A stretch of DNA of 64,000 bases from Candidatus Coatesiibacteriota bacterium (GTDB lineage: Bacteria > RBG-13-66-14 > B26-G2 > JAUVZD01). The notes below the pieces were generated by a model. The model had not been told where the DNA came from and ran no database searches. It saw only the letters and a list, made by a program, of their open reading frames with translations. Within the stretch, counting starts at the first letter, position 1, and each line of letters begins with the position of its first letter. Positions 17,967-55,907 of this stretch are shown one piece after another. Both the position numbers and the translations under genes were made by a program. The DNA lies in assembly GCA_030602715.1 (NCBI GenBank), contig JAUVZD010000003.1:1-64000 (forward strand), in the 5' to 3' direction.

Positions 17967-18054
17967 GGAGGGTTAGCCTAATTGGTAAGGCAGCGGACTT
18001 GAAATCCGCCGGGCATTGCGACCCTTGGGGGTTCGAGTCCCTCACCCTCCGCCA
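17967..18054 (+). tRNA. tRNA-Ser(UGA)
   Basis: The acceptor strands GGAGGGT and ACCCTCC pair perfectly. The anticodon stem GCGGA/TCCGC encloses the loop CTTGAAA, with anticodon TGA. A long variable arm (class II) and a TTCGAGT T-loop are present. The 3' CCA is encoded. It lies 10 nt after rplQ and is probably co-transcribed with it. Confidence 0.97.
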
Positions 18055-18087
18055 GCAATTTTACTTTACATAATATTGCTTTGGTTG

Positions 18088-18096
18088 TGCTATAAT
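18088..18096 (+). promoter_or_regulatory. Extended -10 promoter before tRNA-Ser(GCU)
   Basis: TGCTATAAT (18088-18096) is a perfect extended -10 element lying 10 nt before the mature tRNA. TTTACA (18065-18070) is the best -35 candidate but with a long 20-nt spacer, so the extended -10 probably carries the activity. Confidence 0.55.
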
Positions 18097-18106
18097 CGCT
18101 ATAAAC

Positions 18107-18201
18107 GGAGAGGTGGCCGAGTTGGCTGAAGGCGTCCGCCTGCTAAGCGGATGTGGGGCTAAAAGGTCTCACCCAGGGTTCGAATCCCTGCCTCTCCGCC
18201 A
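18107..18201 (+). tRNA. tRNA-Ser(GCU)
   Basis: The acceptor stem GGAGAGG/CCTCTCC, anticodon stem TCCGC/GCGGA with loop CTGCTAA (anticodon GCT), a long class II variable arm, the T-arm CAGGG-TTCGAAT-CCCTG and an encoded CCA are all visible. Together with the preceding UGA gene it reads AGC/AGU and UCN serine codons. Confidence 0.97.
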
Positions 18202-45482: not shown

Positions 45483-46532
45483 TTAAGGGATATACCTCCA
45501 AGAACCACAATTACCGGTATCATCTATGCCCACCGCCCAGGCATCTTGATAATCTATTGAAAATATATCCCTCGGATGCATGAAATAAGCTCTTTTAAAC
45601 CTGGTCCACTCAACGCCGTCCCAGTACCAGATAAAACCCTCACCTTCCGGATGTTCTTCCGTCGGCTCTCCACCATACATCCAACCTTCATCAGGTGATG
45701 AGAAATGCAGACCGTTATAAGTTCCATTATAATTATAATCCCGGTGGTATTCGCCGTCCTCCCATCTGGCCAGATTATCTCCACCTATAAATGCTGAAGT
45801 CGGGGTATCATAGGCAACGCAAGAATACTCCCCTCCAAAATCATAGGTAATCAAATCCCAACTAACACCATCCCAGTGATAGACGAATTTATAAACTCCG
45901 ACCGCTAATCCGTCATTTGCTGAACCAAAGGCGATATCAGTAATACCCAAATTGAGCGGAGATAGATTTACAAATTCAAGTTCACTGCCATTCCAGTGAA
46001 GGAGATCTGAACTATTAATTCCATATAGCTCCCAACAGGAAAACCACACATCATCAGTTGATATCGCAAATACACTGCCTACACCTTCTCCTAAATGGTC
46101 TTCAAACACATACCACTGGTTTCCATCATATCTCAAAATAAAACCTGAGGAACTATCTTCACCAGTTGCTTTATAGACTAACGACCCAACACACCAACCG
46201 TCATTAGATGATGTAAAATAGAGGTCATGTAAAAGAATTCCAATAAACTCTTCATCATCAAACCATCCCGGATAAGCATACTCGGCCCACGCACTGCCAT
46301 CCCAGTGCATAAGAATTAGTTTATCCGGATCATCTCCTCCCTCATAATCACCACAAGCCCACCCATCATTCGGCGAGATAAAGTAACAGGAAAACAAATT
46401 TCCCCAGCCGCCAGGCGTGGGCACCTCCTGCCAGGGTCCGGTGTATATATATCCGTTCGTATCACAGTAGATGGGGACCAGGGTGAGAGAGATGACAGAA
46501 AGCAGAGATAGTATCTTCACTATGGGTTTCAC
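45483..46532 (-). CDS. Secreted propeller-like protein, paralog 2
   Basis: The 349 residues align over the full length with paralog 1, from MKPIVKILSLLSVISLTLVPIYC to near the end. Shared segments include DGWACG, HWDGVSWDLITYDFGG and YNGTYNGLHFSSPDEGWMYGGEP. The lipobox is degraded here (YC). GTG 46532 has an AGAGG site, and about 50 nt of the upstream sequence is almost identical to that of paralog 1, showing that the duplication included the promoter end. Several positions have diverged in the first third. Confidence 0.85.
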   Translation of the reverse strand: MKPIVKILSLLSVISLTLVPIYCDTNGYIYTGPWQEVPTPGGWGNLFSCYFISPNDGWACGDYEGGDDPDKLILMHWDGSAWAEYAYPGWFDDEEFIGILLHDLYFTSSNDGWCVGSLVYKATGEDSSSGFILRYDGNQWYVFEDHLGEGVGSVFAISTDDVWFSCWELYGINSSDLLHWNGSELEFVNLSPLNLGITDIAFGSANDGLAVGVYKFVYHWDGVSWDLITYDFGGEYSCVAYDTPTSAFIGGDNLARWEDGEYHRDYNYNGTYNGLHFSSPDEGWMYGGEPTEEHPEGEGFIWYWDGVEWTRFKRAYFMHPRDIFSIDYQDAWAVGIDDTGNCGSWRYIP

Positions 46533-46667: not shown

Positions 46668-46756
46668 AAAATTATAATACTTTCAATAAGAAACACTACC
46701 ATATACAAATGCGATAATTCCGTCCCCAGCTAAATCTTGACCTCTATTCCTGTTTA

Positions 46757-50230: not shown

Positions 50231-50269
50231 TAATAATAGGATGGCGCATTTAAGGCTTTGCAGAGGGAT

Positions 50270-50327
50270 GTTAAGGAGGTAAGTTGTTATTATTCAACCC
50301 TGACGGATAGGGTTGAGGTAAGACTCA
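50270..50327 (-). ncRNA. Small-RNA-like unit, copy A
   Basis: This diverged copy of the unit at 50456-50553 holds the stem TCAACCCT/AGGGTTGA (50294-50301 with 50309-50316, 8 bp) and an overlapping alternative stem TTGAG/CTCAA (50313-50317 with 50324-50328). Downstream on the minus strand it has ACTTACCTCCTT, similar to the 16S rRNA 3' end. Promoter elements lie at the homologous place. No terminator is visible; the 3' end is unknown and the transcript could run into the antisense of the mfd end. Confidence 0.5.
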
Positions 50328-50333
50328 ATATTT

Positions 50334-50376
50334 TTTATACGAGATTCTCGGTTAGATAACAAGAGATATCGTGCTG
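50334..50376 (-). promoter_or_regulatory. Promoter and conserved box of copy A
   Basis: Reading the minus strand: box CAGCACGAT (50376-50368), 5 nt, -35 TTGTTA (50362-50357), 17 nt containing TAACCGAGAAT, -10 TATAAA (50339-50334). Spacing equals that of copy B. Confidence 0.5.
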
Positions 50377-50455
50377 TCGCTATAATTCTTCTGTTACGAT
50401 GAGGAGTTTTGGGGTTTAATATCGTGAGGGGTTGTTTTTTTCCCTTTACGAGGAG

Positions 50456-50487
50456 AAAAACCGGGAAGGCGCCTAAGGCGCCTTCCC
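50456..50487 (-). terminator. Terminator of small-RNA copy B
   Basis: A perfect 11-bp stem GGGAAGGCGCC/GGCGCCTTCCC (50463-50487) with a 3-nt loop is followed on the minus strand by GG and TTTTT (50460-50456). On the plus strand there is no T-run. Confidence 0.7.
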
Positions 50488-50553
50488 AGGAGAGTAAAGG
50501 AGGTAAGTGATTATATTCAGTCCTAACGAGTAGGACTGAGGGTAAAACTCAGC
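50456..50553 (-). ncRNA. Small-RNA-like unit, copy B, about 98 nt
   Basis: On the minus strand transcription would start near 50553, 7 nt after a TATAAT. The transcript first holds CTGAG (50552-50548), which can pair with CTCAG (50540-50536). An 8-bp stem of 50539-50532 with 50524-50517 uses the same middle strand, so the two hairpins are mutually exclusive. A single-stranded part with CACTTACCTCCTTTAC follows. The end is a strong terminator with an 11-bp stem. I do not recognise the family. The plus strand alternatively shows AAGGAGG and tiny ORFs, but promoter and terminator favour the minus strand. Confidence 0.6.
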
Positions 50554-50559
50554 GTGCAT

Positions 50560-50602
50560 ATTATAATAAATCCTCGGTTAAATGTCCAGTATAATCGTGC
50601 TG
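50560..50602 (-). promoter_or_regulatory. Promoter and conserved box of copy B
   Basis: Reading the minus strand: box CAGCACGAT (50602-50594), 5 nt, -35 TGGACA (50588-50583, 5 of 6 consensus), 17 nt containing TAACCGAGGAT, -10 TATAAT (50565-50560, perfect). Confidence 0.65.
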
Positions 50603-50626
50603 GTTTTTTGTGGTTAGAGCTTAGGT

Positions 50627-50722: not shown

Positions 50723-50750
50723 AAAGGGGTCGGCGGAAAGCGACCCCTTT
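50723..50750. terminator. Terminator hairpin after the barrel gene
   Basis: AAAGGGGTCG (50723-50732) pairs perfectly with CGACCCCTTT (50741-50750) around an 8-nt loop. On the minus strand TTTT follows, so it probably ends the barrel gene transcript whose stop is at 50816. Confidence 0.65.
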
Positions 50751-50815
50751 CTAGCGGGATGTTATTTCATAGCTATCCGATTTCACCAGAAACGGTGATG
50801 ATTTTGAATTTGTGG

Positions 50816-54479: not shown

Positions 54480-55907
54480 ATGGGGGATAGCGGAGCAAGT
54501 CAAAGCTGTTATTCGGGGAGAGTAGATGAGGAGGAGAGCGGTGGTGAGCCCATACTTGCCGATGCCCACCTGCATCTGGATATGTCAAATTTTGACTCCG
54601 ACCGGGAGGAGGTTGTAGCGCGGGCTGGCGAGGTTGGGGTGGCGATTTTAGTGCAGGCGGGCTCAGACCTCCCGTCTTCTCAGTTCGGAATGAGATTTTC
54701 CGCTGCCCATTTGAATGTATATTTCACTTCAGGGCTTCATCCCCACCAAGCCGACCTGGGAAGCGACGACTATCTGCAGAAGCTGGCTGGATTGGCGAAG
54801 GAGCCCAAATGCGTGGCAATCGGTGAAGCGGGGCTGGACTATTATTATGACCACTCCCCGCGCCCGGTGCAGAGGAAGGTGTTCGCAAGACAGATAGAGC
54901 TGGCGCACCAGCTTGACCTTCCCCTGGTGGTGCACAGTCGGGAGGCTTTTTCCGATACGGTCGCTGTCCTCAAGGAGGTGGGAGTGCCGGCTAAAGGGGT
55001 TCTCTTCCACTCCTTTACAGGTAGCGGGGAGGCGGCGGTCCTGCTGGCTGAGATGGGGGCTTATATCTCGGTTAACGGTATTATTACATTTCCTAAAGCC
55101 AATGCCCACCGGGAGAGCTTGGCGACTTTTCCCCCGGAGAGGATAATGCTTGAGACCGATGCACCGTATCTTGCGCCGTCTCCCAGGCGGGGGAGGAGAA
55201 ATGAGCCGGCTTATCTTCCCCACACGCTCAGGTCTTTAGCTGAAATGCTGGCAAGAGGCGAGGAGGAGCTTGCCTATCTGACCACCAAGGCTTGTCGCAG
55301 ATTCTTCAACATTCCCTATGAGACACTCGGCACCATAACCTATCGCATCCGTAACTCCCTCTATCTGAACATAACCAATCGCTGTAACAACGACTGCCCC
55401 TTCTGCGTGCGCCAGAGGGGTGACGGCGTTTGCGGGTATGACCTTCGCCTCTCCGTCGAGCCGCTGGCAGACGAGGTCATTGCTGAGATAGGCGACCCGA
55501 AATTATATGATGAGATTGTCTTCTGCGGTTTCGGAGAGCCCCTGTTGCGTCCCCTGCTGGTGAAGGAGGTGGCTGGCTGGATAAAGGCGCAGGGGGGAAG
55601 GGTTCGCATCAACACCAACGGCACCTCCTCCCTCTACCACCAGCGGGATATTGTGGCTGAGCTGGACGGCTTGGTGGATGTCTACTCGGTCAGCTTGAAT
55701 GCGGTAAGCGAGGAGGAGTATCAGCGCAACTGTAAGCCTTCTCTAGTAGGTTCATTTAAGGCGGTGCTCTCCTTTATCAAGAGGGCTCGTGAGTCGGGTG
55801 CGGAAGTGGTAGCCACCTTCGTGCACCTGCCGGGGCTGGATGAGGAGTCCGCACGTCGCCTGACCGATGAGTTGGGGGTGAGACTGCGCATTCGGGCACA
55901 TGTATAA
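54480..55907 (+). CDS. TatD-family hydrolase fused to a radical SAM domain
   Basis: Residues 27 to about 280 form a TatD metallohydrolase: ILADAHLHLDM, TSGLHPHQA, VAIGEAGLDYYYDHSPRPVQRKVFARQIELAHQLDLPLVVHSREAF, GVLFHSFTG and MLETDAPYLAPSPRRGRRNEPAYLPHT. The C-terminal 190 residues form a radical SAM domain with the cluster motif CNNDCPFC and FCGFGEPLLRPLLV. It matches the known TatD-linked radical SAM group, here fused to TatD in one chain. The radical SAM reaction is unknown. TatD acts as a deoxyribonuclease. ATG 54480 follows GGAGGTGG. Confidence 0.9.
   Translation: MGDSGASQSCYSGRVDEEESGGEPILADAHLHLDMSNFDSDREEVVARAGEVGVAILVQAGSDLPSSQFGMRFSAAHLNVYFTSGLHPHQADLGSDDYLQKLAGLAKEPKCVAIGEAGLDYYYDHSPRPVQRKVFARQIELAHQLDLPLVVHSREAFSDTVAVLKEVGVPAKGVLFHSFTGSGEAAVLLAEMGAYISVNGIITFPKANAHRESLATFPPERIMLETDAPYLAPSPRRGRRNEPAYLPHTLRSLAEMLARGEEELAYLTTKACRRFFNIPYETLGTITYRIRNSLYLNITNRCNNDCPFCVRQRGDGVCGYDLRLSVEPLADEVIAEIGDPKLYDEIVFCGFGEPLLRPLLVKEVAGWIKAQGGRVRINTNGTSSLYHQRDIVAELDGLVDVYSVSLNAVSEEEYQRNCKPSLVGSFKAVLSFIKRARESGAEVVATFVHLPGLDEESARRLTDELGVRLRIRAHV

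Follow-up and report, generated by a model that had tools for sequence, protein, structure and literature searches.

Two tandem units between mfd and an outer-membrane protein gene as probable sibling small RNA genes with an anti-Shine-Dalgarno linker

Two paralogous units, A and B, located in a 64,000-nucleotide stretch of DNA from a Candidatus Coatesiibacteriota bacterium (contig JAUVZD010000003.1, positions 1 to 64,000; hereafter the window), are read here as tandem sibling small RNA (sRNA) genes on the minus strand, which would have arisen by whole-gene duplication and carry an anti-Shine-Dalgarno (anti-SD) linker, a reading to which we assign a probability of roughly 0.75. The RNA is undescribed at the sequence level, while its kind is already familiar, that of tandem siblings with a 5' hairpin, a CU-rich anti-SD linker and a terminator.

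Paralogy of the two units and their genomic setting

Unit A (50268-50380, minus strand) and unit B (50492-50606, minus strand) each consist of a box, a promoter, a hairpin and an anti-SD linker, and lie in tandem between the convergent mfd gene (plus strand) and an upstream outer-membrane protein gene (minus strand; PF13557 match). The two were aligned in a whole-genome search with 71% identity over about 107 nt (E 6e-6), and the alignment runs along the minus strand through the whole gene, in the order CAGCACGAT box, -35/-10, 5' arm, 8-bp hairpin and ACUUACCUCCUU linker. The claim of two paralogous small-RNA-like units, made in a sequence-only reading of this DNA, is borne out by this alignment, and with 71% identity, promoters in register and two genomic copies A and B have the marks of two homologous genes produced by duplication.

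No further copy was found in the organism's own genome (2.31 Mb in 18 contigs), where a 131-base query around B returned only B itself and A, and where a covariance model likewise found A and B and no third locus; a search of the 64-kb window with filters off revealed no third, degenerate copy. Two weak BLAST matches to B in the same genome were judged on reading not to be copies. That only two copies exist, and that the terminator of one is degraded, is what a non-functional repeat might leave behind, be it a decayed mobile element or an accidental duplication. However, conservation between A and B is uneven and concentrated in the box (9/9 identities), the -10 element and the anti-SD linker (12/14 identities in the linker block), the hairpin is compensated, and the genome holds no other copies, all of which make such a repeat a very unlikely explanation.

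Promoters, terminators and the predicted transcript

Unit B is preceded by a promoter, TGGACA-17-TATAAT (50560-50588, minus strand), which matches at 11/12 positions in the promoter scan and is one of only two sites of that quality on both strands of the window. The alignment places a promoter-like sequence of A, TTGTTA-17-TATAAA (50334-50362, minus strand), in register with it, weaker at 9/12 and with the same 17-nt spacer. On the minus strand the CAGCACGAT box stands 5-6 nt upstream of the -35 element of B (50594-50602) and is identical in A (50368-50376), and together with TAACCGAG in the promoter spacer it forms the best-conserved part of the unit. The combination of CAGCACGAT and TAACCGAG at fixed spacing is intact genome-wide only at A and B, and no wider regulon was apparent. 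The box is a possible regulator site or operator for both promoters, through which the two sRNAs would be regulated.

On the same strand, about 100 nt from its promoter, B has a strong intrinsic terminator (50461-50489, minus strand), a 13-pair stem followed by TTTTT, and no other perfect stem of 10 bp or more on either strand of the 64-kb window has five or more T in its 7-base tail. The promoter and terminator scans, together with the fold, predict a minus-strand RNA of about 98-100 nt (50456-50555), starting at 50555 or 50553 and ending at about 50456. This agrees with the sequence-only reading, which had placed promoter (50588-50560), unit and terminator in a row on the minus strand of B and had proposed a transcript of about 98 nt. 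A counterpart of the B terminator was found in A at 50238-50256 (minus strand) by local alignment (shuffle p 0.016), although it is degenerate and forms no stable stem (-0.9 kcal/mol). Thus B has both its own promoter and its own terminator, while A, with its 9/12 promoter and no functional-looking terminator, may be decaying.

The outer-membrane protein gene has a separate terminator of its own (50723-50751, minus strand; fold -17.6 kcal/mol), so that B is not simply a 3' UTR produced by readthrough from that gene and is probably a free-standing sRNA gene. Since no minus-strand gene follows A and B before 46532, a role as a leader RNA is also disfavoured.

We then have to consider that the functional element lies on the plus strand, either as a structure or attenuator-like hairpin in the mfd 3' UTR or as tiny leader ORFs, with the minus-strand promoter a coincidence. 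The plus strand of the units indeed carries GGAGGTAAG followed by TTG/GTG, with a TAG in the loop, and AAGGAGG with an 8-codon frame in both A and B; the main hairpin can also form on this strand, extended by G-U pairs, and there is a weak terminator-like site at 50586-50603. However, a spacing of just 3-4 nt between SD and start and frames of eight codons are not convincing, the next plus-strand gene does not begin before 51868, with the minus-strand outer-membrane protein gene intervening, and the B promoter, the in-register promoter of A and the strong minus-strand terminator would be left unexplained. We regard a plus-strand element as unlikely. For the plus strand, where the loops are ACGG and ACGA, a resemblance to the ACGR loop of guanidine-II was considered and set aside, the loop being a pentaloop with one hairpin per unit and no Rfam match.

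The same plus-strand frames bear on a further alternative, a type I toxin-antitoxin module or another cis-antisense pair, in which a small ORF on the plus strand would have its SD covered by the minus-strand RNA. Modules of this type typically show tandem duplication and an RNA of about 100 nt complementary to an SD-like sequence, as is found here. However, the sole plus-strand frame at the SD is eight codons long, and A and B have no hydrophobic ORF of at least 20 aa in common, which makes an antisense pair of this sort extremely improbable.

Main hairpin and overlapping 5' hairpin

The main hairpin of B (stem 1; 50517-50539, minus strand) consists of 8 bp, 50517-50524 with 50532-50539, plus a closing A-U pair (A525-T531) and a pentaloop. 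That of A (50294-50316, minus strand) has 8 bp, 50294-50301 with 50309-50316, with two double changes relative to B. A second, 5-bp hairpin (stem 2) overlaps stem 1 in both copies, pairing 50536-50540 with 50548-50552 in B (50536-50552, minus strand) and 50313-50317 with 50324-50328 in A (50313-50328, minus strand). All of these base pairs and their coordinates had been listed in the sequence-only reading and were correct on direct inspection, as were the triple at the shared position (A297-T313-A328 in A versus G520-C536-G552 in B) and the second pair change from C-G to T-A (C298-G312 in A versus T521-A535 in B).

These changes had been read as what selection on two alternating structures would give, a view that we could not support as it was stated. 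The predicted energies of stem 1 are -11.9 kcal/mol in B and -10.1 kcal/mol in A, and those of stem 2 are -3.7 and -2.7 kcal/mol, so that stem 2 is weaker by 7-8 kcal/mol. Stem 2 was seen in predicted folds of nascent chains of about 20-36 nt of both copies and was missing from the full-length folds. In B it appeared at 24 nt (-6.3 kcal/mol) and had given way to the main hairpin by 40 nt (-12.9 kcal/mol), and in A it appeared at -3.2 kcal/mol with the main hairpin present by 36 nt (-10.2 kcal/mol).

A and B differ in 13/57 transcribed alignment columns. When these 13 differences were placed at random, a stem 1 with Watson-Crick pairs throughout and two or more double changes was obtained with p = 0.0023, while a stem 2 still fully paired given the observed stem 1 was obtained with p 0.06 (Watson-Crick) or 0.09 (with G-U), values which come from one sequence pair picked because it had already been noticed and which should be discounted accordingly. 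The compensated pairing suggests that stem 1 has probably been kept by selection. Two sequences amount to one evolutionary comparison, and the 'concerted covariation' described for the two stems therefore stands on a single change in the shared column.

A bistable RNA, in which both overlapping stems would be functional end states between which the molecule switches, would account for the one shared-strand change that is matched on both partners and for the predicted formation of stem 2 in nascent chains of A and B. However, the weakness of stem 2 and its absence from full-length folds, the p of 0.06-0.09 in a single comparison, the failure to recognise a ligand site, the lack of a downstream gene to control and the lack of further homologues in our searches all speak against it, and we hold such a switch to be improbable. 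Stem 2 is best read, from the modelled folds, as a transient 5' hairpin that would be displaced once the main hairpin forms. The bistable claim would gain weight only with more homologues or with probing data.

The predicted B RNA (100 nt) has a fold of -41.9 kcal/mol in which a 5' hairpin domain is followed by the linker CCUCCUUUACUCUC, for the most part unpaired, and by the terminator; for a slightly longer stretch the fold has a z of -6.7, to which the terminator contributes much. In the predicted full-length folds of both A and B, the 5' UGAGU pairs with ACUUA directly before CCUCC, a helix that is invariant between the two copies and is thus without covariation support.

The anti-SD linker

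The linker of B (50493-50508, minus strand) contains the anti-SD element ACUUACCUCCUU, of which CCUCCUUUAC is predicted to be mostly unpaired and ACUUA to pair with the 5' UGAGU. Over 12 nt the complement of the linker, AAGGAGGTAAGT, is identical in A and B. The unit therefore has the feature that would be expected of an anti-SD sRNA, a CU-rich, SD-complementary stretch (CCUCCUUUAC) that is unpaired in the predicted fold and conserved in both copies. By its complementarity to the SD, and by analogy with proven precedents, the conserved and mostly unpaired linker would be the natural working part of the RNA.

Near-perfect complements of the linker (AAGGAGGTAAGT with at most one mismatch) were not enriched genome-wide, 14 sites including both loci being found against 21 in the reversed control, and targets would therefore need shorter pairing at the SD. 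Duplex scores against the genes of the window gave no clear target candidate, and a search with the linker-block pattern in relatives gave no excess over the reversed control. A scan with the linker pattern of genome and viral contigs gave three matches, which on reading were judged unrelated.

Searches for homologues, Rfam families and Hfq

At gathering score no Rfam family matched the 50.2-50.8 kb region (highest score 19.9 bits, cut-off 80.4), and relaxed thresholds brought out no family for the A/B locus either. The weak cmscan similarity of linker and terminator to Listeria sbrA (RF01489; 16.5 bits, E 1.3, gathering score 45) is at chance level. The absence of an Rfam family agrees with the sequence-only reading. 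Its statement that the layout was known from no RNA family holds at the level of sequence and fails for the layout itself, which is well known, for example from NmsRA/NmsRB (PMC5362039).

BLAST searches with B of its own and 97 other genomes returned only A and B, the remaining matches being short and at chance level. A covariance search with A and B as the family was carried out in 386 genomes including their own, with stricter filters above 40 genomes, and among the 385 others, which include 13 sampled members of the phylum, it found no homologue; relatives with compensating changes, by which the alternating structures could have been backed, did not come to light there. Plasmid and phage collections yielded no homologue, and a scan of genome contigs for the Mfd C-terminus yielded no relative. 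The arrangement downstream of mfd was not conserved in nine relatives; in the closest of these, from the same order, the place is taken by an ABC-transporter permease-like gene. Because no homologue was found outside the genome itself, both structure and strand are deduced from two sequences. The pair is probably lineage-restricted, judging from these sequence searches, although the nearest sampled genome belongs merely to the same order (Mfd 44% identical), so that absence there is no proof of a family confined to the species.

A search for Hfq (PF17209) gave no match in the organism's own genome or in 13 other members of the phylum, and a match in 5/14 control genomes. Pairing by the linker would thus be independent of Hfq or make use of another chaperone.

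Comparison with known sibling sRNAs

The closest parallel is provided by NmsRA/NmsRB of Neisseria meningitidis, tandem sibling sRNAs with 70% identity whose anti-SD stretches have been tested by mutation (PMC5362039). Like A and B, they lie in tandem in one intergenic region with about 70% identity and similar predicted folds, their first stem-loop is followed by a single-stranded, UC-rich anti-SD stretch, and the copies are unequal in strength (PMC5362039). In contrast, NmsRA/NmsRB comprise three stem-loops with two anti-SD sites and their host has Hfq, and no sequence relationship to A/B was detected (no Rfam match).

Tandem siblings that share more than 65% identity are met with repeatedly (PMC4211561). 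AbcR1/AbcR2 of the Rhizobiales, with more than 65% identity in Agrobacterium, are thought to derive from duplication and so resemble A and B as a tandem sibling pair of that origin (PMC4211561), but belong to an alphaproteobacterial family that acts on ABC-transporter mRNAs, with no detected sequence relationship to A/B. The multicopy LhrC1-5 of Listeria are also CU-rich and bind the SD region through a single-stranded stretch and loops, and LhrC blocks the lapB SD without requiring Hfq for lapB repression (PMC4132741). They differ from A/B in having three UCCC motifs, five copies and a different sequence.

Proposed mode of action

We propose that a sigma-70-type promoter belonging to B would drive synthesis of an RNA of about 98-100 nt that ends at the strong intrinsic terminator. 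During synthesis the 5-bp stem 2 would form first and be short-lived, being displaced on completion of the main hairpin; the 5' UGAGU freed in this way could then close an outer helix with ACUUA. In the finished RNA the CU-rich anti-SD linker (ACUUACCUCCUU) would lie, mostly single-stranded, between the 5' hairpin and the terminator hairpin, with the main hairpin positioning and protecting the linker. The exposed CCUCC would pair with the SD region of target mRNAs and block their translation, probably without Hfq.

If transcribed, the pair would be a concrete riboregulator from a bacterial phylum that is sparsely sampled and in which Hfq was not found. It would also add a further independent case to the tandem sibling sRNAs that carry an anti-SD linker, which would suggest a repeated origin of this architecture. 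A more speculative extension, to which we give little credence, is a new sRNA family in this phylum without detectable Hfq, in which the 5' arm would follow a programmed path, starting in the 5' hairpin, being released by the main hairpin and finally joining part of the anti-SD linker in an outer helix. The time at which the anti-SD seed becomes available would then be set by folding during transcription or by the binding of a target.

Other features of the window

On the minus strand, 45483-46532 encodes a 349-aa protein without NCBIfam match, preceded by a promoter-like site at 46686 that matches at 11/12 positions. Two tandem tRNA-Ser genes with the anticodons TGA and GCT are present at 17967-18201 (plus strand). 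A 475-aa fusion protein is encoded at 54480-55907 (plus strand), in which a TatD nuclease (TIGR00010, residues 26-277) is joined to a TatD-linked radical SAM domain (TIGR04038, residues 285-473), partners that NCBIfam names separately.
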